Of a stretch of 64,000 bases of DNA, positions 3 to 25,675 are shown piece after piece. The notes under the pieces were generated by a model, which saw only the letters and a list, made by a program, of their open reading frames with translations, had not been told where the DNA came from and did not search any database. A program made the position numbers and the translations under genes. The stretch comes from Salipiger pentaromativorans. Lineage in GTDB: Bacteria; Pseudomonadota; Alphaproteobacteria; Rhodobacterales; Rhodobacteraceae. The stretch lies in the NCBI RefSeq assembly GCF_024721115.1, contig NZ_JAMDHK010000005.1:124001-188000 (forward strand), given 5' to 3'. How positions within the stretch are numbered: the first letter of the stretch is position 1; each line of letters starts with the position of its first letter.

Positions 3-1322
3 TCGAGTATTTTTCAGCCCGCGATCTGCTGGACAGTTGTCACAACCGGCCGCAACGGATTTAGGCTTCACTCTGATGGTTTTATATTCGATGCCGCAGC
101 CGGTCTCTGCCAGCCAAAGACCGACGTCGAAATCGAGTATCTGCTCGGGCTGTTGAACTCAAAGATCACAGAAGCAGCTTTGCCTTTGATCAATCCAACG
201 ATCAACCTTCACCCGGGTTATCTATCTTCACTTCCCGGCCTCGCGGTAAAACAGAACGATCAAGTTCGATCCCTTCGAGATCTCGCAAAATCCGACTGGG
301 ACGCCTACGAAACCTCCTGGGATTTCACCACGCTTCCGCTGCTATCGCCCGATCACCGGGAAGAGACGCTGGAGGCCAGCTATGCCAACCTCCGCGCCCA
401 CTGGCAGGGCATGACCGATGTAATGCAGCGGCTGGAGGAAGAAAACAACCGCATCTTCATCGATGCTTATGGCCTTCAGGACGAACTCACCCCCGAAGTG
501 CCGATCGAGGAAATCACGCTCACCTGCAACCCTGCCTATCGCTATGGCGTGAAGGGTTCGGAAGAGGACCGTGAGGCACGGCTGCGCGAGGATACGGTGG
601 CCGAATTCCTCCACTATGCCGTGGGCTGCATGTTCGGACGCTACAGCCTCGACGCGCCCGGCCTGATCCTCGCCAATCAGGGCGAAGGGATTGAGGACTA
701 TCTGGCGCGCGTGCCGGAACCCAGCTTCGCACCCGACCGCGATAACGTCATCCCGGTGCTGGATGCTGACTGGTTCGCCGATGACATCGTCACCCGCGCC
801 CGCGATTTCCTGCGCGTCACCTTCGGCGAGGCGAAGTTCCGTGAAAACCTCGCCTTCATCGAAGCCGCCCTCGGCAAGGATCTGCGCCGCTGGTTCACAA
901 AGGATTTCTTCGATTATCACGTGCGTCGCTATAAAAAGCGCCCGATCTACTGGATGTTCTCCAGCCCCAAGGGCAGTTTCAATGCGCTGATCTATATGCA
1001 CCGCTACCGGCCCGACACGGTCTCGGTCGTGCTGAACCAATATGTGCGTGAATTCATCCATAAGCTGGAGGTGGAGCGCACACGGCTGGAAAAGCTGGCC
1101 GTCGATCCTGCCGCTACGCCTGCCCAGCAGACAAAGGCGCAGAAGGAAACGGCCACGGTCATCAAGCAGATCGCCGAGCTGACCGAGTGGGAACGCGAAG
1201 TCGTCTATCCGATGGCGCAGCAGAAGATTGCCATCGATCTCGATGACGGGGTGAAGCGCAACTATCCGCTGTTCGCCGGTGCGCTGAAGCCGATCAAGGG
1301 GCTGGAGGCTGCGGATGACTGA
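3..1322 (+). CDS. pglX: BREX type 1 DNA methyltransferase PglX, C-terminal part (5' truncated by window)
   Basis: PglX is the adenine-specific DNA methyltransferase of BREX; it marks host DNA so that phage DNA can be told apart. The frame is open from base 3 and has no start in the window. A TTG near base 153 is internal, because the sequence before it (GLLNSKIT context) is typical of the target-recognition region of large N6-adenine methyltransferases. The visible part holds the C-terminal region, including YSLDAPGLILANQGE and YKKRPIYWMFSSPKGSFNAL, which I know from BREX-1 PglX. The catalytic NPPY motif would lie upstream, outside the window. It overlaps pglZ by 8 bases, so the two are probably translationally coupled. 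brxA, brxB and brxC should lie to the left. Confidence 0.9.
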   Translation, partial: SSIFQPAICWTVVTTGRNGFRLHSDGFIFDAAAGLCQPKTDVEIEYLLGLLNSKITEAALPLINPTINLHPGYLSSLPGLAVKQNDQVRSLRDLAKSDWDAYETSWDFTTLPLLSPDHREETLEASYANLRAHWQGMTDVMQRLEEENNRIFIDAYGLQDELTPEVPIEEITLTCNPAYRYGVKGSEEDREARLREDTVAEFLHYAVGCMFGRYSLDAPGLILANQGEGIEDYLARVPEPSFAPDRDNVIPVLDADWFADDIVTRARDFLRVTFGEAKFRENLAFIEAALGKDLRRWFTKDFFDYHVRRYKKRPIYWMFSSPKGSFNALIYMHRYRPDTVSVVLNQYVREFIHKLEVERTRLEKLAVDPAATPAQQTKAQKETATVIKQIAELTEWEREVVYPMAQQKIAIDLDDGVKRNYPLFAGALKPIKGLEAADD

Positions 1323-3822
1323 CCGCATCACCGCCGGCCTGATGCGCCTTTATGAGGATCAGGGGCACCGCATCGTCTTCTGGTATGACGCCGCCCGTGA
1401 TCTCCGCGGGGCGTTCGATTCGGTGGACCTGCCCGGCGTCACCAAACTGGAGATCGCCAACAACGAATTCGGCCTGAAATACCGCATGTTGCGGCAGGAA
1501 CCGAAGGCGCGGTTTCTGCTCTACAAGGATGGCCCTGAGCCACCGATGCCTGAGAACTGGCTGCTGGATGTACAACTGGCCAGCGCCATCTTTCGCGCCG
1601 ATCAGGCAGCGATCTGGGTCGCGGATCTCGGCATTCCGGCGAAATACGAAGCCGCCGTGCGCGATCACGCCGAATTCTACCGTTCCGGCAAACGGTTGGA
1701 AGCGCTGCGCGCGATCGAGCGCGAGCGGCCTTCGCAAAGCGCCAATGATGTCCGCCGCAAGATGCTGGCAGTCTGCGCTGGTGCGGATGGCGATCTCGAT
1801 ACGGTGATCGAGGCGTTGCTGGCCGAACTGGCCGAAGGCTGTGATGACGCGCTGAAGCTGATGGATCGGGTCGGGCTGACAGAGTTCTTCTGGAAGGACG
1901 TGGCCGCGCGTTATGGCTATGCGGCGGATGCGCCGGATTTTCAGGATTTCGCCATCACGCTGTTTTCCAGCGCTTGGGCGCGGGCCATGGGAGAAGCTGC
2001 CCCCCTGAACACCGATGCCGCGCTGATGTTCCGCCGCTGGAGCGCCTCGCGCCGGTGGGGTGAAGCGTTCGAGAAGCTGTCGGGCGATTATCAGGACGTG
2101 CTGAAGATCAGGGACAATCTGGCCTCCCGCGATTTTCGCACCCTCATGCCGCATGATCACTTCGAGGAAGTGGACCGGAGGATCGTTGTCGCCATCGTTG
2201 AGGGGCTTGCCCGGCAGAGCCTGTCGGCGACAGATGTGCTGAAATGGGTACGCGATCGCCGCCAGAGCCATTGGTATAGCCGTTACGCGGATGTCTATCA
2301 GGCCATTGGCTATGCGACCGAGTTTCAGCAGGCGCTAGCCGAGGCTGATCTGACGATGACCAGCCTGTCCGATGGTGTGAAGCGCTATTCCGCAAGCTGG
2401 TTTCGACTGGACCAGCTCTATCGCAAGTTCATCTATCACATGCAGAAAAGCGGTCAGTCGGGGCTGCTGTCCGCGCTCTATGAGGCGGTTGAGAACCGCT
2501 ACACCACGAATTTCGTGCTCAAGTTGAACGATGCCTGGCAGGATCAGGTGGCTCGCCTCACGGACTGGGCGGTCCCGGGCTTTCCACGTCAGGTGGATTT
2601 CTACCGGGGGCAGGCTGCTGAATACCGGCGCAAGGATCAAAAGGTCGTTGTCATCATCTCGGATGCGCTGCGCTATGAGGTGGCCGAAGAGGCGCTGCGC
2701 GAGATCCGCAAGCTCAATCGGTTCGATGCTGAACTGAAGCCGATGATCGGGGTTTTGCCGAGCTACACCCAGCTCGGCATGGCGGCACTCTTGCCGCACC
2801 GACAACTGGGGATTCGCGATGACAATGATCTGGTGCTGCTGGATGGTGAAAGCACCATGGGGGCCGCCGCTCGTGAAAAGGCGCTGGCTGCGGGCCGGGC
2901 TGGAGACCGGGTAAAGGTTCTCGCGGCGAAGGATTTCATGAATCTGGGATCATCGGAGGGTAAAGACCTCTTCCGGGATCATGATGTCCTCTATCTGTAT
3001 CACAACCAGATCGACGCAATTGGCGACAAGCTCGCCACGGAGGAAAATGTCCCCGCCGCGGCAGAGACTACCATCGAGGATCTGGTGAAGCTGGTGCGGA
3101 AGCTGACCTCGGCCAATTTCTCGAACATCTTGATCACCGCCGATCACGGATTCCTGTGGCAGCACAAGGCTCTGGAAGAGAGCGGCTTCGCGCTGAGCGA
3201 GCCGGAAGGCGAGATTGTTACACGAAACCGGCGCTTCGTGATCGGCCGGGGCCTTAACAGCAGTGGCGGCATGAAGAAGTTCTCTGCCGCACAGCTTGGG
3301 CTGGAAGGTGAGCAGGACATTCTGATCCCGAACTCGATCAACCGCCTGCGGGTTAAAGGATCAGGCAGCCGCTTTGTCCATGGCGGGGCGAGCCTGCAGG
3401 AGATTGTCCTGCCGGTTCTGCGTGTCGGCAAGCAGCGCAAGGAGGATGTCGGGCAGGTGTCTGTGCAGATCATTCCGCCACCCCGCGCTCAGATCACCAC
3501 GGGCCAGATCCAGGTCACCTTCTTTCAGGCGGAGCCAGTGACCGACAAGCAACAGCCCCGGCAGGTGCATACAGCCATCTTTGCTGACGATGGAACACTC
3601 ATCTCTGACGAAGCCGAGTTGGAATTCGATTTCACGTCTGAGAACCCGCGCGAGCGCGAGCTGTCGCGGAGCTTCCTGCTGTCCAAGGCGGCAGACGCCT
3701 ATAACAATCAGACAGTCTTCCTGAAGCTGCGAACGCGCATCGGCAAGACCAGCCATTTCGAAGATCACGCTTCGCAGCCGCTGCTGCTGAAACGCGGGAT
3801 CAGTACAGATTTCGATTTCTGA
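1315..3822 (+). CDS. pglZ: BREX-1 alkaline-phosphatase-fold protein PglZ
   Basis: PglZ is the core alkaline-phosphatase-superfamily protein of BREX, needed for both methylation and phage exclusion. The 835 residues match the usual length of BREX-1 (type A) PglZ. The N-terminal IVFWYDAARDLRG stretch is typical. The metal-binding fold is seen in VVVIISDALRYEVAEE (about residues 445-460) and ILITADHGFLW (about 605-615), which supply the Asp and His ligands. A beta-rich C-terminal region with LQEIVLPVLRV follows. It starts inside the end of pglX (ATGACTGA overlap) and stops 7 bases before brxL, placing it mid-operon. Confidence 0.93.
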   Translation: MTDRITAGLMRLYEDQGHRIVFWYDAARDLRGAFDSVDLPGVTKLEIANNEFGLKYRMLRQEPKARFLLYKDGPEPPMPENWLLDVQLASAIFRADQAAIWVADLGIPAKYEAAVRDHAEFYRSGKRLEALRAIERERPSQSANDVRRKMLAVCAGADGDLDTVIEALLAELAEGCDDALKLMDRVGLTEFFWKDVAARYGYAADAPDFQDFAITLFSSAWARAMGEAAPLNTDAALMFRRWSASRRWGEAFEKLSGDYQDVLKIRDNLASRDFRTLMPHDHFEEVDRRIVVAIVEGLARQSLSATDVLKWVRDRRQSHWYSRYADVYQAIGYATEFQQALAEADLTMTSLSDGVKRYSASWFRLDQLYRKFIYHMQKSGQSGLLSALYEAVENRYTTNFVLKLNDAWQDQVARLTDWAVPGFPRQVDFYRGQAAEYRRKDQKVVVIISDALRYEVAEEALREIRKLNRFDAELKPMIGVLPSYTQLGMAALLPHRQLGIRDDNDLVLLDGESTMGAAAREKALAAGRAGDRVKVLAAKDFMNLGSSEGKDLFRDHDVLYLYHNQIDAIGDKLATEENVPAAAETTIEDLVKLVRKLTSANFSNILITADHGFLWQHKALEESGFALSEPEGEIVTRNRRFVIGRGLNSSGGMKKFSAAQLGLEGEQDILIPNSINRLRVKGSGSRFVHGGASLQEIVLPVLRVGKQRKEDVGQVSVQIIPPPRAQITTGQIQVTFFQAEPVTDKQQPRQVHTAIFADDGTLISDEAELEFDFTSENPRERELSRSFLLSKAADAYNNQTVFLKLRTRIGKTSHFEDHASQPLLLKRGISTDFDF

Positions 3823-3829
3823 GGTGCCG

Positions 3830-5911
3830 ATGTCGACCCTTGATGACAAGATCAATGAGCATTTTGCCGGTTTCGTGGTCCGTAAGGACCTGGTGAAGGC
3901 CGTGAAGGGGAACGCCATTGTCCCCACCTATGTGCTCGAATACCTTCTCGGCCAGTATTGCGCGACCGATGACGAAGCCTCGATTGCGACAGGCATCGAA
4001 ACGGTCAAGGACATCCTGCGCAAGCACTACGTCCATCGTTCCGAAGCGGGGTTGGTACAATCAACGATCAAGGAGCGTGGCCGCTACAAGGTCATCGATC
4101 AGGTTAGCGTGGCGCTGAATGAAAAGACCGATGCCTATGAGGCGGTCTTTGAAAACCTCGGTATCAAGCGGGTTGCCATCGACAGCGCCACGGTAAAGGC
4201 GCACCCGAAACTGCTGGTTACGGGTATTTGGTGCATCGCCGATGTGCAGTACGAGTTTTCGGAAGACAGCCGGATCTCCCCCTGGATCATCGACACGTTG
4301 AAGCCGATCCAGATCGCCCGTGTGGACTATGACGGCTATCGCGAGACGCGGGACAAGTTCACCACCGAGGAATGGATCGATCTGCTGATGCAGAGCATCG
4401 GCTTTGATCCGTCACTGTTCGGGCGCAGGTCAAAGCTTTTGCAACTGTTGCGCCTGGTGCCATTTGTTGAGCGCAACTACAACCTCATCGAGCTTGGTCC
4501 CAAGGGGACGGGAAAATCTCATATCTATTCCGAGTTCTCACCCCATGGTCAGCTGATCTCGGGCGGTGAAATCACGGTTCCCAAGCTTTTCGTGAACAAT
4601 TCCAATGGCCGGATCGGATTGGTCGGCTTTTGGGATGTCGTGGCCTTTGACGAATTTGCCGGCCGCGAGAAGACGGCCAACAAGGCGCTTGTCGATATCA
4701 TGAAGAACTACATGGCAAACAAGCAGTTCTCTCGTGGTGTAAATCCGATGGGCGCCGAGGCCAGCTTCGCCTTCGTCGGCAACACGGACCATAACGTGCC
4801 TTGGATGCTGAAAAATACGGACCTGTTCGAAGCTCTGCCGCCGCAGTTCCACGACAGCGCCTTTATTGATCGATTGCATGCCTATCTGCCCGGATGGGAG
4901 GTCGACATTATCCGGGGTGAGATGTTCACATCTGGCTATGGGTTCATCGTCGACTATCTGGCCGAAATCCTGCGCCATCTGCGTGCGGAGGATTTCTCAC
5001 ACCGGCCAGATCGCTATTTCACCATTCCGGTTCAGACCCATATCCGGGACCGTGCGGCGATCAACAAGACCATGTCAGGTCTGCTGAAGCTGATCTTCCC
5101 GAATGGAGGCGAGACTGAAGCCGAAGTTGAAGAACTGCTGCGCTTTGCGATTGAATGCCGAAAGCGGGTGAAGGATCAGCTCCTGCGGATCGACAGCACC
5201 TTTGAGGCAGCAGATTTCCATTACATCGCATCGGATGGCGCAAAGCGCGCCGTCGCCACGCTGGAGGAAGAGGAGTTCCCCCAGTTCTACCACCGTCGAT
5301 CAACCGACGATGGAAGTGAAGGTGTGAATCAACGAGAGATTGGGTTGGTAACGGCAGAACCGGTCTCAACGGTGGCTGCTTCCGCAGCACCTGCCGTTGC
5401 CGCTGCCCCGCACTCACCCCCAACTCCCGGACATGTCGTTTTCACAGAAAACCGCAAGGGCATCAGTTTCGACAAGATCTTTGGTCCTTGGACGGATGGT
5501 GCGACGCGGATTATCATCACAGACCCCTATATCCGGAAGTTCCATCAGGCACGCAACGTGATGGAACTGATCGAGATGCTAATCCGGCGTAAACAGCCTG
5601 AAGATCAGATCGCTGTGCATCTTGTCACGGCTCCGGACGATGGGAACATCCAGGAGCAGCGAGAGTGCTTGGACGGGATTGCTGAAGCCTGCACAGGCAC
5701 GGGCGTCGATTTCACATGGGCCTTTGATGGGAGCGGCACTCTCCATGCACGCGACATCACGACGGATAACGGCTGGAAGATGGTTCTGGATCGCGGATTG
5801 GATATTTTCCAGCCAACGCCTCGCAAGATGAACGGTTTCTCGCTCGGAGAACGGATGCAGGAGCACCGGATGGTCCGTGGTTTCTACGTGACTTATGTCG
5901 AGAACCTTTAG
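3830..5911 (+). CDS. brxL: BREX AAA+ protein BrxL with a MIT_C-like C-terminal domain
   Basis: BrxL is the AAA+ factor of type 1 BREX. I chose ATG 3830 over GTG 3824 because GAGG at 3821-3824 sits 5 bases before it; this gives 693 residues. The AAA+ core has Walker A ELGPKGTGKSH (about residue 225), a Walker B-like VVAFDEFAG and FAFVGNTDHN. Canonical BrxL then ends in a Lon-like peptidase domain. Here, after a Pro/Ala-rich linker (about residues 515-540), I see instead FGPWTDGATRIIITDPYIRK, NGWKMVLDRGLDIFQ and FSLGERMQEHR, the signature of the phospholipase-D-like C-terminal domain of eukaryotic MITD1 (MIT_C). The identity as BrxL is strong. The domain swap is my reading and would change how the protein binds its target. 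Confidence 0.9.
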   Translation: MSTLDDKINEHFAGFVVRKDLVKAVKGNAIVPTYVLEYLLGQYCATDDEASIATGIETVKDILRKHYVHRSEAGLVQSTIKERGRYKVIDQVSVALNEKTDAYEAVFENLGIKRVAIDSATVKAHPKLLVTGIWCIADVQYEFSEDSRISPWIIDTLKPIQIARVDYDGYRETRDKFTTEEWIDLLMQSIGFDPSLFGRRSKLLQLLRLVPFVERNYNLIELGPKGTGKSHIYSEFSPHGQLISGGEITVPKLFVNNSNGRIGLVGFWDVVAFDEFAGREKTANKALVDIMKNYMANKQFSRGVNPMGAEASFAFVGNTDHNVPWMLKNTDLFEALPPQFHDSAFIDRLHAYLPGWEVDIIRGEMFTSGYGFIVDYLAEILRHLRAEDFSHRPDRYFTIPVQTHIRDRAAINKTMSGLLKLIFPNGGETEAEVEELLRFAIECRKRVKDQLLRIDSTFEAADFHYIASDGAKRAVATLEEEEFPQFYHRRSTDDGSEGVNQREIGLVTAEPVSTVAASAAPAVAAAPHSPPTPGHVVFTENRKGISFDKIFGPWTDGATRIIITDPYIRKFHQARNVMELIEMLIRRKQPEDQIAVHLVTAPDDGNIQEQRECLDGIAEACTGTGVDFTWAFDGSGTLHARDITTDNGWKMVLDRGLDIFQPTPRKMNGFSLGERMQEHRMVRGFYVTYVENL

Positions 5912-6035
5912 CTTCGTCGGTCGTGTTGGCGGGGCAGGTCCGGCTACGCGCTCGGCGGGAAGCGAGAAGTCGACCTCGATGCCCAAGCCCTCATCCTCGT
6001 TACAGTTTTCCTGATCAGCAGATTGCAGGCCATTC

Positions 6036-8582
6036 ATGCACTACCCCTTCCTCGTCATTGATCCGCGCTCCGGCCTGCAATACCGCCTAACCGATACCGG
6101 TCTTGCCGAATTGTCCCTTGCCCCCATTTCTGCCGAATGGGCGCCGGGGCGTGCCATTGCCGAGGCGCCTGACCCGGTCTGGGCCGAAAGTCTTGCCAAT
6201 GCGCCTGTCGAGACGATCTCGGCGGTGACCGCCGCGCTGACGGATCTTGTGCTGGCCACGCCGGATCTGAAGGTGCCGAACGTCGATCACCTGCCAGACA
6301 GCCGCGCCAAGCGGCATCTCTTGGCGCTGGTCGCGTTGTGGCAAAGGTTGGGGGATGCGCTGCCAGAGGGGCTGGCACCGATTTCCCATGTGCTGGCCCT
6401 GCCGCATGGGGCGTTCCTGGGCTCGTTGCCGGTGGTTGAAGGTTCGCTGGATCCTCTAGCTCCTGCGGCGCTGCAGGCGCTTTTTGCCCGGTTGCGGGAC
6501 GAGTTCGGCACTGTTCCCGCAAGCGCCTATACGCCCCGGGCCGCAATCGGCAGCCGTCTGCACGCGCTGCAGGGCGGTGTTTCAGCGCAGGATATCGAGG
6601 CCGGGGTTCTGGATGACAGCCTCGCGTTCTATGGTCTGCGCGATCCCGCCGCCTGCGCCGATTTCGCCGCCGCCCAAGCCCGGGCGCTGATTGAGTCCGG
6701 CGTTTCGGCCCGTGAAATCGCCGTGCTGTCGGGCGATGATCTGCGCCAGATCGCGCGCGCTTTCTCAGCCCAGGGAGTGCCGCTCTCGGGCCTTCCGGGC
6801 CAATTACCCGAGCGAGATGTCATTGGCGAGACCGCGCTACATCTGGCGCTGGCCAAGCGACCGCCAACTCCGGCTATGGTCTTGGCGAGCCTCGCGCTTT
6901 CTCCTTTGATGCCCTGGGCGGCACAGACCGCACGCGATCTTGCCGAAAGCCTCATGGGTGGCGATTTCCGAGGCGCCATCCTCACGGACACGCCCGCACA
7001 TAAGGAACTGTGGGACGATATCCGCGCCTCGGCCGGCAGCTTGCCGCAGCTGCGATTCCTGCTGGACCGGATCTGCGAGCGGATCGGAAAAGGCGATCAG
7101 GTCCGCGCGCGGCTGACTGTCCCCCCCGGCGAAGGCACGCCGGATTGGGAGATAATCCTGCGTGGCATTCAGATCGCGCCGCCCATGGTTGCGGACCCCG
7201 ACCGCAATCTTGAAGGCGTCAGCCTCTGGTCCGCGCATGAAAGCCCGTGGCGCCCATGCCGCCATCTGATCGTCAGCGATTTCACCGACGGGCTTTACCC
7301 AACTCGCCCGCGTGCCAATCCGCTGTTTCTTGACAGCGAGATCGCTGCGATACACGCGGGAACCGGCGTTCACCTTCGCGGTCGGGCCGAGGGGCTGGCG
7401 CAAAGCCTCGCGTTACTTGATCAACAGCTTCAGGCGGTTTCCGGCAGCGTCACCTTCCTCATCCCATGGCGCGATCTGGCGGGCGGGCGCTTGCAACCTT
7501 CGGCCGGGTTGTCGCTGGTGGCGCGGGCGGTGGCGGGCGTTGAGGATGCCAGCGATCTGATCACCGATCTGTCGCGTCAGAGCCCTGCGGAATGGCCGAT
7601 TGCGTATCACCATCTGATGCCGGTGTCGGAACCCGCGGAATTGCCTGAGGAGCTTACTTTCCCGGGGCATCACCTTCTGTCCCTTCGTCGGCGCGATGAC
7701 GGCACCGCCAAACCGCAATCGCCCTCACGGCTCGAGACGCTGCTTGTCAGCCCGCTCGCCTGGCTTCTGGCCGAGGTTGGGGCCGAGGATATGTCTTGGT
7801 CGACCGAAGAACTCGACGTGATGGCAAGGGGCAATATCGCCCATGATGTCTTTGAGCATGTCTTCCTGAAGGATCAGCCGTTCCCGGAAACCGAGGCGCT
7901 GGCAGAACTGATCCCCGAGGCCTATGACCGCGCGCTCACCCGTCACGCGGGCTATCTGCGCAGCCCGTCATGGGAGATGGAGCGCCGCGGTTTGGAGCGT
8001 GAGATCATGGCGGCGGCCCTGCGCTGGCGCGACCACTTGCTGGCGCTCAATGCCAAGATCATCGGCAATGAAATCTGGCTGGCCGGTGAGGCGCATGGCA
8101 TCAATCTGCATGGCAAGGCCGACGCGATCCTTGAACTGCCTGATGGTGCGCTCTTGATCATCGATCACAAGAAAAGCGGCACCAAGGGCCGGCGGCAGCG
8201 GATGGAGGCGGGCTGGGATCTGCAGGCAGGGCTTTACGCCGATATGATAGCGCGGCCCATGCGGCGCGAGGGTGACGGCATGGACCCGCTGATCGGCCGC
8301 AAGGTGGCGGTCGCCTATCACCTGATGAATGATGGCGGGCTGCTGACTTCGGGTCTGGTCTTGCCCGAGGGCTCGCCCGCTCGCGACATGGGCGATGCGG
8401 TGAATGCCGGGGCGGTAGCCAAGCTGGCGGAACGCTTGGCCGAACTTGGTGCAGGCCGGGTCGTGCTGAACACCTCTGAGGATGCGGCCTTCTTCAAGAA
8501 AGAAGCCGGCTTCACCCCCTATGCGCTGACCGATGGCTCGGCCCTGGTCACCGCCTTCATCCGCACGCTCGAGGAGGAATGA
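6036..8582 (+). CDS. AddB-like inactivated helicase with PD-(D/E)XK nuclease domain
   Basis: 848 residues, resembling the AddB subunit of AddAB-type helicase-nucleases. The middle has the UvrD-like C-terminal fold without a working ATPase: HLIVSDFTDGLYPTRPR followed by NPLFLDSEI is the AddB-type motif. The C-terminal PD-(D/E)XK nuclease shows GNIAHDVFEH (about residue 600), GKADAILELPDGALLIIDHKKS (Asp, then Asp-x-Lys, about 695-715) and LQAGLYADM. I see no Walker A motif and no obvious iron-sulfur cysteine set. It is the first gene of a five-gene overlapping operon and lies 124 bases after brxL. The Shine-Dalgarno sequence is weak, so readthrough from BREX is possible. It is a defence-island paralogue, not obviously the housekeeping recombination AddB. 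Confidence 0.75.
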   Translation: MHYPFLVIDPRSGLQYRLTDTGLAELSLAPISAEWAPGRAIAEAPDPVWAESLANAPVETISAVTAALTDLVLATPDLKVPNVDHLPDSRAKRHLLALVALWQRLGDALPEGLAPISHVLALPHGAFLGSLPVVEGSLDPLAPAALQALFARLRDEFGTVPASAYTPRAAIGSRLHALQGGVSAQDIEAGVLDDSLAFYGLRDPAACADFAAAQARALIESGVSAREIAVLSGDDLRQIARAFSAQGVPLSGLPGQLPERDVIGETALHLALAKRPPTPAMVLASLALSPLMPWAAQTARDLAESLMGGDFRGAILTDTPAHKELWDDIRASAGSLPQLRFLLDRICERIGKGDQVRARLTVPPGEGTPDWEIILRGIQIAPPMVADPDRNLEGVSLWSAHESPWRPCRHLIVSDFTDGLYPTRPRANPLFLDSEIAAIHAGTGVHLRGRAEGLAQSLALLDQQLQAVSGSVTFLIPWRDLAGGRLQPSAGLSLVARAVAGVEDASDLITDLSRQSPAEWPIAYHHLMPVSEPAELPEELTFPGHHLLSLRRRDDGTAKPQSPSRLETLLVSPLAWLLAEVGAEDMSWSTEELDVMARGNIAHDVFEHVFLKDQPFPETEALAELIPEAYDRALTRHAGYLRSPSWEMERRGLEREIMAAALRWRDHLLALNAKIIGNEIWLAGEAHGINLHGKADAILELPDGALLIIDHKKSGTKGRRQRMEAGWDLQAGLYADMIARPMRREGDGMDPLIGRKVAVAYHLMNDGGLLTSGLVLPEGSPARDMGDAVNAGAVAKLAERLAELGAGRVVLNTSEDAAFFKKEAGFTPYALTDGSALVTAFIRTLEEE

Positions 8583-11500
8583 CCATGGCCCCCGTCAATG
8601 CAGATCAAGGTCTGGTCATCGTTCCCGCGGGTGCCGGCGCGGGCAAGACCCACCGCATCAAGACCCAGCTGTCCGATTGGGTGAAACGCGGCATTGTCCG
8701 GCCCGAACGTATCCTTGCCGTCACCTTTACCGAAGCCGCGGCTGGCGAGTTGCGCGAAAGGATCCGTGCCGGCCTTCTGGCCGATGGACTGGTCGCCGAG
8801 GCGATGGCGGTCGAGCGCGCCTATGTCTCGACCATACATGGACTGGGCCTGCGGCTTTTGACCGAACATGCTCTGGCGGCTGGCGCCTCGCCGCAGCCGC
8901 GTCATCTGGGCGATGCCGAGCGGGATCTGCTGATCCGTCAGGCACTGGCACATGCCAAGGCGCTGGACCCGATCAAGGCCGCGCCCGAGCGGTTCGGTTA
9001 CGCCCCGAACTTCGTGAAGGGCGAGACGGTCGAAGACAGTTTGCGCGCCCGGGTGCTATCGATGATCGACCTCTTGCGCGGCCTTGGGGACAAGGGGCGC
9101 GACGCTGGCCTGATCGCTCCGGCACTGACGCGGCTGGATGCGGTTTACGGGCCGGTTCTGGATGACCCTATCGCCGCGACCACCGCGTTGCAGACGGCCG
9201 TGCAGGTCATGATCGCAGCCTTTCCCGAGGGAGGCATGGCCGGGATCACCGCCAAAACCAATGTCGAGAAGCTGGAGAAAAACCTCGCGCTTTTCAAACG
9301 TGTTGATCGCGCGCCCGATCTTCTGGATTGGGATTGGCAGGTCTGGAACGATCTGCGCAGCCTGTTCATCTCTAACCGCTCCAGCAAGACGCCTGCGGGA
9401 TATGACGACCTTGCCACGGCGATCATGGCGGCGGCGGATGTGCTGCCCTGCCATCCCGGCCCGCTGGCCGATGCTAAGCTGCACCTGTCCTGCCTGATCG
9501 CCTGCGCGCAAGAGGTGATGGCGGCCTATGAGACCCGCAAGAAGGCGCTCGGCCTGATCGACTTTGCTGACATGATCACCGGGGCTGAGCACCTGCTCCG
9601 CACCGACCTCGCCGTGCGGCAAGCGGTGCTGGACGAGATCGACTGTGTCATCATCGACGAATTCCAGGACACCAACCCCGTGCAATTCGCGCTTTTATGG
9701 CAGTTGGGCCAGCACGCGCCGCGCACACTGCTGGTGGGCGATGTCAAACAGTCGATCATGGGGTTTCAGGGTGCCGATCCGCGCCTATCGACAGCGCTGG
9801 CGGCGGCAAATCCCGATGCGACCCAGCCTTTGGACCGCAACTGGCGCTCGACCCCAGCCATCATGCAATTCGTCAATGCGATGGGGGCTGGCCTCTTTGG
9901 GCAGGGCTATAACCCGCTGGCGCCGACCCGCGATGCGGTCGCAGCTCCCGCGATCGAGGTTCTGAACGCTACGCAGGGACGGCGCTCACAAAAGTATTCG
10001 CAGCCCCCAGAACACATCGCCGAGCGCATCGCCCGTATCCTGACTGATACTGAGACCATCACCGACCGCCACACGAAGGCCGTCCGGCCGGCGCGGCCTT
10101 CGGATATCGCGCTCTTGGTCTGCCGCCACACCACCGCCGCCCGCTATGCCGAGGAATTGCGCGCGCGCGGCGTTCCGGTGCGGATCGCCGAGGATGGCTG
10201 GGCGAAAAGCCCGGTGATTGTTGCCGCCCGCGCCGCGCTGGCCTTTGCCGCCAATCCGGCGGATATCCATGCCGGGCTGCTCTTGCGCACGCTTGGCCCG
10301 GACCCGCTGCCCTTGCAGGAGGCGCTATCCGCCCAGATCGAAGGGCGGTTGGTCGATGACCCGGTGCTGATGCTGCTGGCCGCGCTCTCGGACATTCTGG
10401 CCCGCTCGCCAGTGGGGGCGGGGCTTGATCTGGTGCTGGATGCCGCCGACCTGCGTCTCTGGGCCGAACGTCAGCCCGATGCCGCCCAGTCCCGCGCCGA
10501 TCTTCTGCGGCTAGAGGCTGAGGCGGGTGAGTTCGAAGCCGCGCATCGCGATCTCAAATCCGCCTCGGGGTTCCACGGCGAGACTGCCAAGGTCTTTCTC
10601 GGCTGGCTCGACGCCCGTGGGGGCGAGCGCGATTTCGACCGTCATCCCGATCCTTCCGCCAACAGCGCCGAGGCCGTGGAGATCGTCACCTGGCATGCCT
10701 CCAAAGGGCGGGAATGGCCGATCACTGTCGTCGCAGAGTTCGACTATGGTATCGAGGAACGTGCGGGGGCCACTGCGACCCGTTTCGATGCCTTGGACCG
10801 CATCGACGATATGGCGGTGGTGCTGGGGTCCGCGAGCCTGATCCACACGCCCGGCTTTGCCGCGCCCGAGGCGACCCGCCGTTTCATCGAAGACCGTCGC
10901 GCCGATTTTGAAGCCAATGCGAAAAACCTTCTCTATGTCGCTCTGACCCGTGCCCGTGACCGGCTGGTGCTGGAATGGCCGGGTTTTCTGAAGGACCGCG
11001 AAGAAGACGCGCCCGAGGCTACGAACCTGTTTCATATCCTGTCCGATACTTGCGCGCCGCAGATCGGGGCGGGCAGCCTGCGCATCAATGGCGTGGATTG
11101 CCCGGCGCTGATCACGCAACTGCCTGAAGAGGCGGGATTTACCGAGTACGCAGGCGGTGCGGCAGCGTCAGCGCTGCGATTCGGTGCCGCTGCGCCGTTG
11201 CCCGTGACACCGCTAACGCCCTGGCGGCTGCAGCCCTCGCAAACCCGTAGTGCGGGGGTACCGCCCGTGTCCCGCCGTATCAACATCGGAGCACCCTGGC
11301 CAAAGGCACTGAACGATGCCTACCGCGGCACAGCACTGCATCTGGCGCTGCGCACATACCTGACCCGGCCCGATCTGGCCCCGGCTTTGGCTCTCGCGAC
11401 CGGGCTTGACGACGCCACTCTTGCGCTAGTGGCCGAGCGCGCCACGGCGCTGAAAGCCTGGCTTGCCGATCAGGGCTATACGGATCTGCGCGCTGAGATT

Positions 11501-11785
11501 CCGGTGCTTGGCCACACGCCCGAGGGTGCAGAGATCCCCGGTGCCCTCGACCTTCTCGCCATCGGCCCGGCAGGCGCGATGCTGATCGACCATAAATCCG
11601 GCGGCGGCGGTGACGGGTTTGGCCCCTATTGGCCACAGCTTTCCAGCTATGCCGGACTGTTGGCCGGACTATACCCGCAGCATCCGCTGCAGGGCGTGGC
11701 GGTGTTCTGGGTCGATCACGGTTGGCTGGAACTGGCAGATGAGGGCGCGTCAGCGGGAGCTTGCGCACAGGCCAGAGTTAACTGA
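8579..11785 (+). CDS. AddA-like UvrD/SF1A helicase with C-terminal PD-(D/E)XK nuclease
   Basis: 1068 residues with a full set of UvrD-family motifs in order: Walker A GAGAGKTHRI (about residue 20), Ia AVTFTEAAAGELRERI, II VIIDEFQDTNPVQF, III LLVGDVKQSIMGFQGADP, IV LDRNWRSTP, V EIVTWHASKGREWP and VI LLYVALTRARDRLVL. A PD-(D/E)XK nuclease closes the protein: GTALHLALR, GALDLLAIG and MLIDHKSGG. This is the AddA layout, so together with the preceding gene it forms an AddAB-like two-nuclease helicase. Its ATG overlaps the previous stop (ATGA). By analogy it would unwind and cut DNA ends, here probably phage DNA. The biochemical role is inferred. Confidence 0.85.
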   Translation: MTMAPVNADQGLVIVPAGAGAGKTHRIKTQLSDWVKRGIVRPERILAVTFTEAAAGELRERIRAGLLADGLVAEAMAVERAYVSTIHGLGLRLLTEHALAAGASPQPRHLGDAERDLLIRQALAHAKALDPIKAAPERFGYAPNFVKGETVEDSLRARVLSMIDLLRGLGDKGRDAGLIAPALTRLDAVYGPVLDDPIAATTALQTAVQVMIAAFPEGGMAGITAKTNVEKLEKNLALFKRVDRAPDLLDWDWQVWNDLRSLFISNRSSKTPAGYDDLATAIMAAADVLPCHPGPLADAKLHLSCLIACAQEVMAAYETRKKALGLIDFADMITGAEHLLRTDLAVRQAVLDEIDCVIIDEFQDTNPVQFALLWQLGQHAPRTLLVGDVKQSIMGFQGADPRLSTALAAANPDATQPLDRNWRSTPAIMQFVNAMGAGLFGQGYNPLAPTRDAVAAPAIEVLNATQGRRSQKYSQPPEHIAERIARILTDTETITDRHTKAVRPARPSDIALLVCRHTTAARYAEELRARGVPVRIAEDGWAKSPVIVAARAALAFAANPADIHAGLLLRTLGPDPLPLQEALSAQIEGRLVDDPVLMLLAALSDILARSPVGAGLDLVLDAADLRLWAERQPDAAQSRADLLRLEAEAGEFEAAHRDLKSASGFHGETAKVFLGWLDARGGERDFDRHPDPSANSAEAVEIVTWHASKGREWPITVVAEFDYGIEERAGATATRFDALDRIDDMAVVLGSASLIHTPGFAAPEATRRFIEDRRADFEANAKNLLYVALTRARDRLVLEWPGFLKDREEDAPEATNLFHILSDTCAPQIGAGSLRINGVDCPALITQLPEEAGFTEYAGGAAASALRFGAAAPLPVTPLTPWRLQPSQTRSAGVPPVSRRINIGAPWPKALNDAYRGTALHLALRTYLTRPDLAPALALATGLDDATLALVAERATALKAWLADQGYTDLRAEIPVLGHTPEGAEIPGALDLLAIGPAGAMLIDHKSGGGGDGFGPYWPQLSSYAGLLAGLYPQHPLQGVAVFWVDHGWLELADEGASAGACAQARVN

Positions 11786-12999
11786 TGCCCTGGGGAATAC
11801 TTGCGCCCGATACCGTGGTTTCGCAACGACGCCAGCAGAACCTTGGGCTTGCGGCGGCGGTTCGTCATTTCAATGACCGGGCGGTCCCCGGAATCGGCGG
11901 CATGTGGTTTCCCATGCCCATCCTTTGGTCGGTTCTGGCGATCTCTATCGCCGAGGAACTTGGTGTGCCGGCACTGCCTGTCGGCAACGCGGTCGAAGCG
12001 CGCGTCATGCTTGAAGTCATCGCGGGCCCGCAGGATCGCCGCGTGCGAGGGGCGAGGAAGATGCAGGGCTTGAAGGATAGCAGTTTCCACAATCTCAGGC
12101 GTCGCGGAACTTATGTGGTTCAGCCGATCCGCATGGCGATGGTGCAGCCTCTGGTCGCACTCGGGTTCGTGCAGGGCAGCCGCTACGGCGCGTTCCGCAT
12201 ACATAGCGCTGGCAGAGAGCTGTTGGAGCTGAATGCGATGAAAGAACCGCGCCGTTTGCTTGGTGCCTGGGCGCATGGCAGACAGCCACATGGCCTGAAG
12301 GAGGCCCTAGCAGTGCTTTCCCCGGTTGGGGCTGTCCCGGAAGCGGTGCGTAAACTGATCCTTGCCCGATTGCTCGACGGAAATGATCCCGGCTCGACCC
12401 GGCGCCGGGAGCTGGCGCGCCTCGGCACGGGCCCCAGTTCCACGCATTTGGACCAGGAAACCGCATTGGCGGGGGTTGCGCCGGATCACTGGTCGGATCT
12501 GCGCGCCGGAGCGGCTTTTATGGATATTCGCGATGCCGCGTTGACGGTGTTGGACCAGTTGGAACAGCACCTGCTGAAGCTTCGCGACGATAATCAGCCT
12601 GTGCGCCTGTCAGAAGCGGAGGCAGCCGAAGTCGCCGCCGAGCCGCTGAAACAATTGCGAGATCTGGCCTCGGCAAAAGGCGCGCTTGTCGATCAGGGCA
12701 ATGAGGAGACTAGCCGCAGATTTATCGCGGAAATCCGACATCTGTCCGATCAACAGCTGATCCAGAGGCTGGCCGAGCGCGATTCTACCGTGATTTGTCA
12801 GCGCGAAGGCCACATTTTTCTCGGGCCGGCTGCGAGCGAGTTGCGGGGCAGCTCGGAGACCCAGGACGAGAACCGGCCCCCTCAGGACGAGGCCTTCGCG
12901 CCGCAGCTTTTCCGGCTGCACAATCTTCATTGTCTGGTGACAGAGCTGTCCGGAAAGGTGAACCCGGGCAGCCGTGACGCGGGATCGGAGGCCGTCTGA
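11785..12999 (+). CDS. Unrecognised protein of the coupled helicase-nuclease operon
   Basis: 404 residues that I do not recognise. The first third is the most motif-like: LAAAVRHFNDRAVPGIGGMW, a hydrophobic helix (MPILWSVLAISIAEEL), RRVRGARKMQG and YVVQPIRMAMVQPLVALGFV. It suggests a folded winged-helix-like or scaffold domain. The second half is Glu/Leu/Arg-rich and predicted helical, with no signal peptide, membrane segment or catalytic signature. Start and stop overlap both neighbours by one base (TGATG), so it is made together with the AddA-like protein and the phospholipase-D protein and is likely a structural or specificity subunit of the same system. That role is inference from position alone. 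Confidence 0.7.
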   Translation: MPWGILAPDTVVSQRRQQNLGLAAAVRHFNDRAVPGIGGMWFPMPILWSVLAISIAEELGVPALPVGNAVEARVMLEVIAGPQDRRVRGARKMQGLKDSSFHNLRRRGTYVVQPIRMAMVQPLVALGFVQGSRYGAFRIHSAGRELLELNAMKEPRRLLGAWAHGRQPHGLKEALAVLSPVGAVPEAVRKLILARLLDGNDPGSTRRRELARLGTGPSSTHLDQETALAGVAPDHWSDLRAGAAFMDIRDAALTVLDQLEQHLLKLRDDNQPVRLSEAEAAEVAAEPLKQLRDLASAKGALVDQGNEETSRRFIAEIRHLSDQQLIQRLAERDSTVICQREGHIFLGPAASELRGSSETQDENRPPQDEAFAPQLFRLHNLHCLVTELSGKVNPGSRDAGSEAV

Positions 13000-14801
13000 T
13001 GCAGAACACGACGCTCTACTCCCTCTTCATGCCGCCCGAAGATTGTTATGGCGACTTTGGTCTTATGTGCGGCTTCACCGCGACGCGGCAGGTCCTGGGG
13101 CAGATCCGCCGAACATTCACAGGCGAGATGGCGCGCCCGGTGCTGGCCGCCTTCATCCATCCAACCATGAATGCGATCTCGGACGTTCCGGGACTTGCCT
13201 GGATGTGGATGCGCCTCGAGGGACGCGGCTACAACCTTCTCCATCCCAAGGTGGCGCTTCTGGGTTTTCGCAAGCGCGGCGGAGATGGCTATGTCATTCG
13301 CCTCGCTGTCAGCACGGGGAACTGGACACAGGATCCGCTTACTCGCAGCATCGACCTGTTCTGGTCGATCGATCTGGACTCTGCTGTGCCTGACGCACAG
13401 GACATTGCCGATATCCGCGCTGCGCATGAGATGTTTGGATGGCTGCGCGAGCGGGCAGATTGCGCCCTGATCGAACGCAGTTTTGACGGGCACCGGCCAG
13501 ACGCCCTGCTGGAGGCCGCGATCACAGCCTTGCCCACGTCATCCGCGCGTCCCCGCTTCATCGACAGCCGCAATCAGGCGCTGTTTCCTCAGGTGGTCGA
13601 GCGCCTGGGTACCAAAAAGAAGGCCGACCGTCTCATCCTCGGGTCTGGCTATTTCGAGAGCGACGGCGATGGTGCTGCTGGCCTGCCAGAGCGACTGCGC
13701 CGCGCATTGGTGCAGGAGAAATCCCTGACGAAAACAGCGGCTCTCGACCTGTTTCTCAACCCGTCCTCCTGTCAGGGGCTTGCTGCCCGGGCCGGTGCCT
13801 TGATTGACGCAGGCTGGAACTTGCGCCCTCCGCGCTCTGTCTTGCATGGAACTGATGGGTGCCTGCATGCAAAATTTGTGGTGCTGGCGTCGGGCGAGAC
13901 CGAGGCCTCGGGACGGGCTTATCTTGGATCCGGCAATCTGAGCATGAACGGGTTTGAGCGTGCCGCAAGCGCCGGGGGAAACCTTGAGGCAGGTGTGATC
14001 GTCGATCTGCCGGGAGGACTGAAATGGCCGCGACGCAGAGACACGCGGAACGGTATCGCCGCTGTTTTTCCGATCCAGTTCACTGATGTGGTGACGCCCG
14101 AGGCCCTGCAGCAAGGGGAAGGCTTTGTGCGCCCCGATGAGCCAGAAACCCAGCCGCCAGTTGCGTGGTTTATATGGCAAGACGGGGTGCTCTCGGCCCC
14201 CGAAGACAAATCGGTGATGGTGATTGGTGTCGATGCGGCTCAGGCCCAGACACCTTGTCCATGGCCTGCACCGGCTCCAGCGATTGTGACCCTCGCGGAG
14301 GGCGGCTGGCGGCTGCCTGTCATTTCTTCCGGCGCACTTGTTGTCGCTCGCCCCTCCGATATGTCGGTCGAAGATATCCTTGCCAGCCTTGGATCATTTC
14401 CCGAGCCTGGTGATGCTGACAGCGAAGATGAGGGTGAGGAAGGCGAAGAGCCGCTCACCGACGCCTCAGATACCACCGAAGCTCCGCCAGCTGCCTATCC
14501 CATTCGCAGGATGATGGAACTTCTGGTGCGTCTTTGTGAGACACAGGCAAGGTTAGACCCGCGGGACTGGCAAAGGTGGTGTCGGGAGTTGCAACAGAAA
14601 CTTTGCGCTATCGCGTCTCGCGAAAAAACGATGCTCGAGTTCTTCCGGAACGCCAGGGCAAATCCTCTGCCTGCTCTGGCAGATCCGCGTATGCGCCCGG
14701 AAGGGGTTTCGCCAGACCTATTGAGAGATGCGCTTTTGGCAGTGTCCGTCGCGTGGGAGCTCAGCGCTTACCCATCGCTCTGGGAACGGGAGGCCGCGTG
14801 A
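12999..14801 (+). CDS. Phospholipase-D-fold protein (putative nuclease)
   Basis: 600 residues. Two half-sites of the phospholipase-D fold are visible: LLHPKVALLGF with LAVSTGNWTQD near residues 80-110, and LHAKFVVLASG with AYLGSGNLSMNG near residues 285-315. Each has the H-x-K core and a following S/G-rich GN motif. PLD-fold proteins in defence islands usually act as nucleases without metal. The C-terminal part has an acidic linker (about residues 465-490) and a helical tail. Both ends overlap neighbours in TGATG junctions. The partner is the SNF2-type helicase downstream, a pairing also seen in other defence systems (DISARM has a PLD protein and helicases), but the other DISARM genes are absent here. 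Confidence 0.82.
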   Translation: MQNTTLYSLFMPPEDCYGDFGLMCGFTATRQVLGQIRRTFTGEMARPVLAAFIHPTMNAISDVPGLAWMWMRLEGRGYNLLHPKVALLGFRKRGGDGYVIRLAVSTGNWTQDPLTRSIDLFWSIDLDSAVPDAQDIADIRAAHEMFGWLRERADCALIERSFDGHRPDALLEAAITALPTSSARPRFIDSRNQALFPQVVERLGTKKKADRLILGSGYFESDGDGAAGLPERLRRALVQEKSLTKTAALDLFLNPSSCQGLAARAGALIDAGWNLRPPRSVLHGTDGCLHAKFVVLASGETEASGRAYLGSGNLSMNGFERAASAGGNLEAGVIVDLPGGLKWPRRRDTRNGIAAVFPIQFTDVVTPEALQQGEGFVRPDEPETQPPVAWFIWQDGVLSAPEDKSVMVIGVDAAQAQTPCPWPAPAPAIVTLAEGGWRLPVISSGALVVARPSDMSVEDILASLGSFPEPGDADSEDEGEEGEEPLTDASDTTEAPPAAYPIRRMMELLVRLCETQARLDPRDWQRWCRELQQKLCAIASREKTMLEFFRNARANPLPALADPRMRPEGVSPDLLRDALLAVSVAWELSAYPSLWEREAA

Positions 14802-17341
14802 TGGTGGACTGGAACGAAGTCGCGAGCATTCTGGATCGTATCGCAGGGACGTCTGATGATACCGTGCTAGATCATGGCCAGAAGGCGAGTGTCACAGAAC
14901 TAGCGTGCCGTATCCGGGCGGGCCAACGCTCGGCCCTGTTGGCTGATGAGGTGGGTATGGGCAAGACCCGCATTGCGGCGGCGCTGATCGCAGCGGTGCG
15001 GGAGGCGGGCGGGCGCAGCGCCATTGTTCTGCCCGCGGGCCTTGGGGCACAATGGCAACAGGAACTGAAACGGTTCAACACCGACGACAAGACATTGCTG
15101 CCGCTGCGCAGCTATGATGGTTTCATCTCCGGTTTTTTGCACGATACCGATGCGGAGGGGAGCGCAAGACGGTTACACAGCCATAAGGAGTGGCTTTCGG
15201 ATCGCCGCAAGCAGCGTGAGTTGCCGGAGAACGGCTGGGCCGCCGAAGAGATCATAATGATATCTCATTCCTTCGCGAACATGCAGTTTCCCAATCGTGG
15301 AGAAGGCCCCGCTGGAGGCTGGCGCCGGGAACTCTTACCCAACGTCGCCCGCCTGATTGACGGCCGACGGCGCAACTTCATGCGCGAAAATTTCCATTCG
15401 GGTGAGGTGGGCTATGTATATGCCAGTCGCCGTGCGGCGCGGCACATTGCCCAAACGATTCTGGACCACGAACTGCCGCGCGATGCCATTAACGGCGATC
15501 AGAAATGGCTTTCGGCGGACGATTACAAGAACAGGATCCTGCCGCTGATCGGCTATGGCCTGGGTCAGTTTGATCTCATAGTCGTTGACGAAGCCCACAA
15601 GGCGCGCGGCGCAGATTCAAGCCTTTCGCGCATTCTCGGCCCGGTAAGCTGGGAAGCGGATGATCCTTTTCGTCTGGGCATGACCGCAACCCCGGTCGAG
15701 CTGGACTCCAGCCAGTGGATCGACACGCTGGAGCGACTCAATGGTCGCGATGATGATCAGGATATTACTGCGCTCGCAGAGCTGACGGAATGGATCACCG
15801 GCTATGTGGATGTTGTTCGTCGGATTCAAACCGAAGAACTGGACGAGACGCTGACCGGGGAATTCGAGACCTCCGCCCGGCAGTTCTACGCAGCATTGCG
15901 ACCACACGTCCTGCGCCGGGACAAACGAAGTGACCCCGAATTCTGCGTCTTCAAAGACAGTCATGGTGATTATCGTGAGGTCACCGATATCCCGGTTTCA
16001 CCGGAGGCAGAGGGTTTTACCCGTGACTGGTTGCGCCGCTTTTGTGCGGCTGAGGCGCTGTCGTTACTCCCTCAGGATGATCCGCGTGTGAAACGGGTCA
16101 GGCTCGCCGTTGCCCAGGGGTATGGGTTCGGCTTTGGAGAGGATGAGGAAGACAGCCATTCTGGCATGACAGATGCAAACCTCGTTGGTCCGGCGGGGTT
16201 TTGGACGGAAGCTTTTACCGCTGAGAGCAACGACATCTATAGCCACCCTGCGATCCTGGCGGCAGTGAGACAAATCGAGGCCTATACACGGGCCGGCGAG
16301 AAAGTGCTCGTCTTCGGCAGGTTCCTGACGCCGATGAATGTGCTGACCAGACTGCTGGACGCGCGTGAGATGCTGCGTCGTTTGCGAGACGGACAGCACT
16401 GGCCTGCCAGTGGGATCGGGGAAAGCAATATAGCAGCCGTCATTGCGGCGATGAGAGATCCTGATCTTGCGGTGGCGGGTGGGGTCGACGAAATCGATGT
16501 GATGTTGAAAACCCGCTATCAGGAGTGGGCGAGCGAGCGACGGGCTGAACTCGCACGGCTTCATCGGGAGTTGGAAGACCTTGCGCTGGAGGGAGGAGCT
16601 GCTGCATTTCTGTCAGAGATTCTGCGCCATGAGGACGGCAAACAAGACCTTCAATTCGGGGCTTTGCTCGAGGCACTTGGTGGCAGGCGGGAAGTTGCGG
16701 GCGCTTCCTGGACGGGGCGGGAAATGCTCGGGCTGTTCGAAAAACTGCTCCTGGAGCTTGCCGGCGATGATGAAGCAGAGAACAACGATACGCAGAAAGC
16801 CCGGCTGGATGCCTGGCTGAACGATTATTCCGGGCGCGAGGGCAACTTCGCCAGGATGATGTCAGGTGCAACCGCACCGCAAACGCGGCGTATGCTGCAA
16901 TCTGCATTCAACCGGTCGTCCAGTTGGCCGATGGTGCTCCTCGCGCAATCCCGCGTCGGGCGTGAGGGCCTGAATCTGCATGAGGCCTGTCGCACAGTGA
17001 TTCTACTGCACGCGGAGTGGAATCCCGGCATTGTCGAGCAGCAGATTGGGCGTGTGGATCGCAAGAACAGTCTTTGGCTTCGCGAATGGCGGAAATGGAG
17101 GGATCATGGTGATGGTCTCCCGCCCCGCATTCGGGTTCACCCTGTTGTCGTCAGTGGCACATACGACGATCACAACTGGCAGGTTCTCAAGGCGCGTTGG
17201 CTGGAACTGAGGGCGCAGTTGCATGGCGATGTCCTGCGTCCCGTTCCAGGTCGGTCAGAGGTGATAGATGACAAACGAACCTGCGCTGACCGCGTTCGGC
17301 GCGCAGTGCCGGATTTTTCGCCGGGAAGACGTGGCGGTTGA
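14801..17341 (+). CDS. SNF2-type SF2 helicase
   Basis: 846 residues from the ATG at 14801, which overlaps the stop of the preceding gene by one base; an upstream in-frame extension is only the other frame of that gene. SF2/SNF2 motifs: Walker A ALLADEVGMGKTRIA (about residue 45), Ia IVLPAGLGAQWQQEL, II LIVVDEAHKARG, III LGMTATPVELD, then a long insertion, V QSRVGREGLNLHEA and VI EQQIGRVDRKNS. This layout is typical of RapA/SNF2-like DNA translocases in defence islands. It is the last gene of the operon. No nuclease domain is visible in it; the coupled PLD-fold protein could supply cutting. Confidence 0.87.
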   Translation: MVDWNEVASILDRIAGTSDDTVLDHGQKASVTELACRIRAGQRSALLADEVGMGKTRIAAALIAAVREAGGRSAIVLPAGLGAQWQQELKRFNTDDKTLLPLRSYDGFISGFLHDTDAEGSARRLHSHKEWLSDRRKQRELPENGWAAEEIIMISHSFANMQFPNRGEGPAGGWRRELLPNVARLIDGRRRNFMRENFHSGEVGYVYASRRAARHIAQTILDHELPRDAINGDQKWLSADDYKNRILPLIGYGLGQFDLIVVDEAHKARGADSSLSRILGPVSWEADDPFRLGMTATPVELDSSQWIDTLERLNGRDDDQDITALAELTEWITGYVDVVRRIQTEELDETLTGEFETSARQFYAALRPHVLRRDKRSDPEFCVFKDSHGDYREVTDIPVSPEAEGFTRDWLRRFCAAEALSLLPQDDPRVKRVRLAVAQGYGFGFGEDEEDSHSGMTDANLVGPAGFWTEAFTAESNDIYSHPAILAAVRQIEAYTRAGEKVLVFGRFLTPMNVLTRLLDAREMLRRLRDGQHWPASGIGESNIAAVIAAMRDPDLAVAGGVDEIDVMLKTRYQEWASERRAELARLHRELEDLALEGGAAAFLSEILRHEDGKQDLQFGALLEALGGRREVAGASWTGREMLGLFEKLLLELAGDDEAENNDTQKARLDAWLNDYSGREGNFARMMSGATAPQTRRMLQSAFNRSSSWPMVLLAQSRVGREGLNLHEACRTVILLHAEWNPGIVEQQIGRVDRKNSLWLREWRKWRDHGDGLPPRIRVHPVVVSGTYDDHNWQVLKARWLELRAQLHGDVLRPVPGRSEVIDDKRTCADRVRRAVPDFSPGRRGG

Positions 17342-17599: not shown

Positions 17600-17626
17600 A
17601 CACTATCGCGTTTCGCAACGCTTGCA

Positions 17627-25668: not shown

Positions 25669-25675
25669 GTTTCAT

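Follow-up and report, generated by a model that had tools for sequence, protein, structure and literature searches.

Five consecutive genes on the forward strand of Salipiger pentaromativorans, at positions 6036-17341 of the 64,000-nucleotide stretch analysed here (the window; contig NZ_JAMDHK010000005.1, positions 124,001 to 188,000), are best read as two separable modules that cooperate against invading DNA, a reading to which we assign a probability of about 0.6. Module 2 would be an Azaca-like, DNA-degrading triad made up of a mainly helical protein (gene 3, 11785..12999, 404 aa), a predicted Tdp1-fold phosphodiesterase of the phospholipase D (PLD) superfamily (gene 4, 12999..14801, 600 aa) and an SNF2-type motor (gene 5, 14801..17341, 846 aa). 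Module 1, proposed to be an exchangeable end-processing helicase-nuclease, pairs an AddB-like PD-(D/E)XK nuclease (gene 1, 6036..8582, 848 aa) with an AddA-like UvrD helicase (gene 2, 8579..11785, 1068 aa).

As the original prediction had described, all five frames are open, each gene shares 1-4 bases with the next, and gene 1 starts 124 bases past the end of brxL (5911) on the same strand. The junction DNA, read directly, is ATGACC from 8579 and TGATG at 11785, 12999 and 14801. The listed SNF2 open reading frame (ORF) opens with GTG at 14576; the ATG at 14801, which yields the 846-aa protein, is the best start and corresponds to the annotated start in Haematobacter. The frames are kept in relatives and tight junctions (an overlap or a 1-base gap) recur in loci L004, L006 and L008, so the five-gene arrangement is not a product of chance. 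A scan of positions 5600-6400 for promoters and terminators found none.

A conserved triad and its AddB-AddA partner

Scanning 84,980 species genomes with an alignment of gene 4 confirmed 111 stretches, and the 80 best were retained. Together with seven plasmid loci, one locus from a viral collection and the window, this gave 89 loci found through gene 4, which fall into 67 lineages when grouped at 90% identity of gene 4. In 81 of these loci (61 of the 67 lineages) a single strand carried genes 3, 4 and 5 in this order. The remaining eight either run into a contig edge (L046, L069, L078, L081, L088) or contain a broken gene (L009, L020, L074); gene 3 is shortened in two of the ordered triads (L014 and L024), and the length limits were passed by 77 of the 84 loci holding all three genes. 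When genes 3 and 4 were searched separately by tblastn, the identical seven of 72,556 plasmid records were returned. Hosts of the triad include Alpha-, Beta- and Gammaproteobacteria, Desulfovibrionia, Acidobacteria (Terriglobia) and Planctomycetes. Of 398 genomes of the phylum, two yielded a member of the gene 3 family, the host's own being one of them; the prevalence searches scored few candidates per genome and may undercount, and the second match in one of them (53 residues, E 9e-4) was taken as chance.

The products of module 1 are recognisable by family. Gene 1 matched PDDEXK_1 at 65.6 bits (cut-off 22; 8.9e-18) and gene 2 matched UvrD-helicase at 4e-44, its C-terminus being presumably a RecB-type nuclease, judging from a motif read by eye. 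The partnership of a UvrD helicase with a PD-(D/E)XK AddB-like protein recalls AddAB and RecBCD-type enzymes, but both proteins score far under the equivalog cut-offs of the TIGR02784/TIGR02786 pair of models (21.7 bits against addB_alphas, cut-off 486.5; 148.3 bits against addA_alphas, cut-off 860.75), and the AddB family lacks a Walker A pattern: two such patterns matched none of 27 AddB homologues, whereas Walker A was present in 27/27 AddA homologues. A housekeeping AddAB identity was judged unlikely on account of these scores and of a separate AddA in the host genome, which at 1221.7 bits lies over the cut-off of 860.75.

Both AddB and AddA accompany the triad in 27 of the 89 loci (11 of 67 lineages). 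The pair can precede the triad or follow it (L007, L031, L090), and in L028 it lies on the opposite strand. Among 11 plasmid records with AddB, five hold the triad (counting L009, in which the PLD gene is interrupted), one has a fragment, and five carry AddB-AddA without genes 3 and 4 within 10-16 kb on each side. The last five are plasmids of Komagataeibacter, Agrobacterium, Ochrobactrum, Novosphingobium humi and Sinorhizobium. In the Komagataeibacter copy AddB is split between two reading frames and adjoined by a short ORF with likeness to SNF2 (46 bits), so this copy may be what is left of a larger set. In the class, the AddB alignment was matched in 16 of 337 genomes, at full length only by the host's own copy. 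Because the AddAB-like pair occurs alone with WYL regulators and also with true Azaca, it is, within the reading given above, probably an exchangeable partner.

Beside AddB-AddA in L006 (8557-10125) lies an ADP-ribosylglycohydrolase that carries a fused phosphatase-like domain and belongs to a family present in 12 of the 89 loci. A family annotated HEPN in Fuscovulum is recurrent beside triad-less AddB-AddA pairs or remnants (L146:19757-20494, L148:11895-12581, L149:13305-13997).

The histories of the two modules were compared in the 11 non-redundant five-gene loci. Distance matrices correlated at 0.97-0.99 within the triad and at 0.99 between AddA and AddB, against 0.19-0.24 across modules. 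The corresponding Mantel p was 0.0001 for the gene 3-PLD, PLD-SNF2 and AddB-AddA comparisons, and 0.19 and 0.14 for PLD-AddB and SNF2-AddA, respectively. The AddB and AddA of Fuscovulum share 88-89% identity with those of the window, its triad proteins 29-34%. Mapped on a triad tree of 77 rows, built quickly and rooted at the midpoint, a label marking the presence of AddA or AddB needs five changes (mean 23.7 after shuffling). AddAB is a persistent partner of the triad, and one that is also replaced by homologues.

Triad proteins compared with Azaca

Gene 5 scored over the Pfam cut-off for ResIII, Helicase_C and SNF2-rel_dom and carries all five helicase motif patterns tested; its homologues keep GxGKT (84/84), DEAH (83/84) and QxxGRxxR (84/84). 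For gene 4 the libraries returned PADLOC ZacB alone, a partial match at 1.5e-9. An AlphaFold2 model built from an alignment of 52 sequences (pLDDT 88.6) was compared with the PDB by Foldseek, and the 35 best matches were all Tdp1 chains (E from 1.2e-9, probability 1.00, TM-score by target 0.44-0.53). The HKN motif is the signature of Tdp1. In gene 4 the candidate catalytic residues of motif I (H82, K84, N108; 13242..13322) and motif II (H290, K292, N313; 13866..13937) are invariant in 52/52 aligned sequences, and the strict patterns are found in 76 and 81 of 88 homologues, respectively. The patterns of the genome scan spanned motif I, whose conservation is thus partly due to selection, leaving motif II as the sole unbiased test. 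The Tdp1 fold with two HKN motifs places the predicted enzyme in the Tdp1/PLD superfamily.

Gene 3 has no family match in Pfam (E<=0.1), NCBIfam or PADLOC (E<=0.01). Its AlphaFold2 model, from an alignment of 44 sequences, is confident (pLDDT 88.0) and mainly helical, with a putative winged helix near residues 100-147. A fold search of this model against the PDB and BFVD gave nothing at E<=0.001, and the single match in a PDB sequence search (E 0.74) is unrelated. On plasmid pBEN of Paracoccus versutus genes 3 and 4 are fused in a single 1004-aa ORF (L007:15980-18994), which suggests that the two proteins touch.

The nearest known layout is that of Azaca, in which ZacA is a DUF6361 protein, ZacB a PLD protein and ZacC an SNF2 protein. 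Searching genomes with the PADLOC ZacB and ZacA models yielded six Azaca loci. A separate count in the phylum matched ZacA in 6 of 398 genomes, four of them strongly. The genes of the six loci lie in the same order as the triad, with products of about 370-410, 610-710 and 980-1080 aa; both systems have an SNF2 motor, and ZacB, like gene 4, carries two HKN motifs in 6/6 loci. In two Azaca loci (L103, L104), ZacABC is preceded by WYL, AddB (844 and 837 bits) and AddA (1336 and 1360 bits) genes of the window's families. Aligned by hhalign, the PLD protein matched ZacB (probability 94.3%, 1e-7, 115 columns) and the SNF2 protein matched ZacC (probability 92.3%, 69 columns), but the similarity extends over 43-115 and 69-75 columns only. 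Gene 3 has no kinship to ZacA that sequence methods detect: hhalign gave a probability of 0.1-0.2%, no better than unrelated control pairs (0.1-0.3%), the DUF6361 model, part of the Pfam library used, does not detect it at E<=0.1, and PADLOC gave no match. The triad thus has a ZacB-type protein (PLD, about 600 aa, two HKN motifs) and, for want of a detectable ZacA, does not qualify as Azaca; it looks like a system that works as Azaca does while failing one of its defining features. The original prediction had allowed that a published system might already hold these genes. A closely similar layout, that of Azaca, is published, though its first subunit is not recognisably gene 3. Two other loci encode a protein of about 787 aa with very weak ZacB similarity and one of about 525 aa with weak ZacA similarity (L117:3113-7046, L118:3294-7210), perhaps another branch of PLD systems.

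Azaca was reportedly first described by Millman in 2022. A 2026 review (PMC12926258) lists its mechanism as unknown; PMC10952713 and PMC12278908 list a PLD-like domain for Azaca and name ZacC among defence helicases, respectively. Among the literature matches listed, which mostly leave out subscription papers, no paper describes the triad or the AddAB pair, and no mention of DUF6361 was found.

After profile searches against the defence collection, which the original prediction had called for, its statement that the five genes are not a complete known system stands. The PADLOC matches listed are the best 25 of 52 for gene 2 and the best 25 of 30 for gene 5; the Pfam lists are complete. Gabija shares only a helicase core with gene 2 (GajB, 118 bits), and DISARM (DrmD 60, DrmA 39 bits) and Zorya (ZorD 43 bits) only a helicase core with gene 5. 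There is no OLD or TOPRIM domain in the Pfam lists of the five proteins and no GajA among the PADLOC matches listed, which makes Gabija unlikely; DISARM was judged unlikely for the lack of DUF1998 in the Pfam lists and of DrmB among those PADLOC matches, and Zorya for the lack of ZorA and ZorB there. The ZacC match of gene 5 (53 bits, over the motif region) scores lower than the PDC-M27C, DrmD and BrxH models.

A shared cargo with BREX and the rival explanations

A complete BREX-1 locus lies upstream of the five genes (WYL regulator, brxA, brxB, brxC, pglX, pglZ, brxL). Within the fetched flanks, 11 of 89 loci, amounting to 2 of 67 lineages, have BREX genes close to the triad: the window, nine near copies of it, and L076, a distant locus from a Planctomycete in which BREX occupies the opposite strand. 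The near copies are 95-99% identical to the window's DNA up to about 17.3-17.6 kb (one piece of L009 is 100% identical) and reside in Haematobacter, Novosphingobium, Brucella, Pseudochrobactrum, Nitratireductor, Rhodopseudomonas, Kaistia, Rhizobium and Paracoccus. At the 5' side two of them (L008, L009) reach into pglX, and the other seven start in pglZ, where the fetched flank ends. A single block of DNA, 95-99% identical among its carriers, has passed between alphaproteobacteria. In a Gluconobacter metagenome-assembled genome (L019) the five genes are 95% identical from base 5946 and brxL is lacking. A Leisingera plasmid copy likewise shows no BREX gene within the 24.8 kb covered. The trb context was examined in two cases. 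Upstream of the window are trbL, trbG/CagX and trbI, followed by TetR and LysR genes and then BREX, and the Haematobacter plasmid pOT1-2, typed as conjugative, repeats this order, with trb, TetR, LysR and BREX ahead of the five genes. Within one recent cargo, BREX seems to be a fellow passenger.

The mechanism we propose runs as follows. Gene 5 would translocate along invading double-stranded DNA, gene 3 may serve as an adaptor or sensor contacting that DNA, and gene 4 would cut or unblock it through a covalent histidine intermediate, so that genes 3-5 would form a three-gene, Azaca-like DNA-interference system. Module 1 would most likely resect the DNA ends made by module 2 or by BREX, both modules travelling behind the complete BREX-1 and next to trb conjugation genes. 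No modification gene belonging to either module was seen. We also offer, tentatively, a bolder form of this proposal: genes 3-5 would be a distinct, unnamed three-gene immune system in which the first subunit has a new fold and a Tdp1-type enzyme acts on foreign DNA that is recombining or blocked by protein. AddB-AddA would be a portable resection plug-in, a hitherto undescribed modular effector recruited independently by several PLD-SNF2 systems (the triad and Azaca).

Four other explanations have to be weighed. The triad could be a true, very diverged Azaca, with gene 3 a ZacA beyond sequence recognition. The shared gene order, similar sizes, PLD-ZacB alignment and HKN motifs, together with the AddAB and WYL partners in two of six Azaca loci, would all follow from this, and an N-terminal stretch of gene 3 aligns with ZacA over 21-22 columns, though not significantly; given a gene 3 at the level of control pairs and an SNF2-ZacC similarity confined to 69-75 columns, with three other models scoring higher, we regard it as possible and rather doubtful. 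A single five-subunit complex is improbable. The original prediction had drawn fixed proportions from the overlaps at 4/4 junctions, and in one clade of the triad tree AddA or AddB is found on 27 of 29 rows; against this, the modules occur apart, reordered and on opposite strands (L028), and their histories are weakly or not correlated. Genes of the BREX locus upstream, the WYL gene counted, likewise overlap at 4 of 6 junctions (with mechanical ORF starts), so overlap is the local norm and does not by itself single out the five genes. Their co-linear, overlapping arrangement in the window is real, and it unites two separable modules, not one five-subunit unit, a correction to the view that overlapping genes point to a single complex.

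That the genes form a BREX accessory module, for example degrading BREX-stalled DNA, was the other half of the prediction's suggestion of a new defence system or BREX accessory, and of the two only defence cargo stays plausible. They directly follow brxL on one strand in 10 of the 15 loci of the window's lineage (window included; a contig end cuts three of the other five), and an AddB-AddA pair lies near BREX genes in L146. A constant association across lineages was not found: the check on whether the five genes occur without BREX in other genomes, also suggested there, showed that they do, BREX lying close to the triad in 2 of 67 lineages within the fetched flanks, and the Gluconobacter genome keeps all five genes without brxL. 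We consider this role unlikely. Scarcely better placed is DNA repair or adduct removal for a conjugative element, with no part in defence. The Tdp1 fold, the AddAB-like pair and the trb genes upstream would fit it, and 4 of 7 gene 3 plasmids are typed as conjugative; but triads also sit on contigs of 1.3-3.6 Mb (L027, L068, L070), where conjugation genes were not looked for, defence genes are found among the neighbours, and the genome has its own AddA.

Several points weigh against the two-module defence reading itself. Its defence function is a prediction, most of the neighbours' Pfam families are ordinary among the 25 of 83 listed, and with no known fold matched the role given to gene 3 is a guess. 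The Tdp1 match covers part of the gene 4 model (TM-score by query 0.33-0.40), polyphosphate kinase comes next after Tdp1 among the fold matches, and a PDB sequence search with gene 4 gave no match at E<=1. Separability is also not uniform. In the clade with AddA or AddB on 27 of 29 rows, the pair resembles an obligate partner more than an exchangeable one. With L004 omitted, the cross-module correlation rises to 0.43-0.44 (p 0.03-0.04); without L063 it is 0.05-0.10 (p 0.30-0.39), and without both 0.30-0.32 (p 0.09-0.11), so a weak co-inheritance of AddAB and triad is possible. From the layout of Ochrobactrum L146, where a distance of about 8 kb separates a triad-less AddB-AddA from other BREX genes, a looser link between AddAB and BREX is possible as well.

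Two modules acting together against invading DNA is nevertheless the reading we prefer. It defines a conserved triad with a link to Azaca and a first protein that fits no family of Pfam, NCBIfam or PADLOC. It also identifies an AddAB-like pair passing from one immune system to another, which raises the question of whether a shared resection module boosts different PLD-SNF2 systems, and a Tdp1-fold enzyme in an immune operon, if true, would be an unusual defence chemistry.

Genes around the five-gene cargo

WYL regulators were found within the flanks of 31 of the 89 loci and dual-AAA ATPases within those of 20. Of 102 neighbour proteins, 92 were scanned; among the 25 of 37 defence families listed, these gave LeoA (four matches), LeoBC (two), NERD+UvrD (two) and one match each to Lmu, Hhe, SoFic, Avs1a, RTasMBL, RmrA and RmrT, counts that come without a control set. 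When the unlabelled neighbours were clustered, the biggest group spanned seven loci.

In the window, the BREX genes visible before gene 1 are all on the forward strand: the 3' part of pglX (3..1322; PADLOC PglX 2.6e-154), whose 5' end lies upstream of the window (whole gene at L150:15811-19323), pglZ of BREX-1 type A (1315..3822; TIGR02687 769.5 bits, cut-off 270.35) and brxL (3824..5911; PADLOC BrxL E=0), with a C-terminal PLD-like MIT_C domain (PF16565, at 546-692). This BrxL resembles the HKD-DNase BrxL variant reported in PMC12839542, a 2026 survey of BREX neighbourhoods, which describes auxiliary nucleases beside BREX and whose text contains no word starting AddA, AddB or RecB. Across window positions 3-281 the near copies L008 and L009 diverge, matching the window only from about base 282; their PglX is 79-81% identical to that of the window, compared with 98-100% for PglZ and BrxL, as if the target-recognition part of PglX had been swapped. 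On the Novosphingobium plasmid pSA1 (L009:17625-20064) an insertion of about 2.5 kb interrupts the PLD gene, and the remaining aligned cargo is 99-100% identical to the window. Past the cargo, at 17400-30000, six of the ten ORFs scanned had no Pfam match, and the nameable genes are ordinary (LysR regulators, a semialdehyde dehydrogenase and a tRNA-Pro at 25676-25752).

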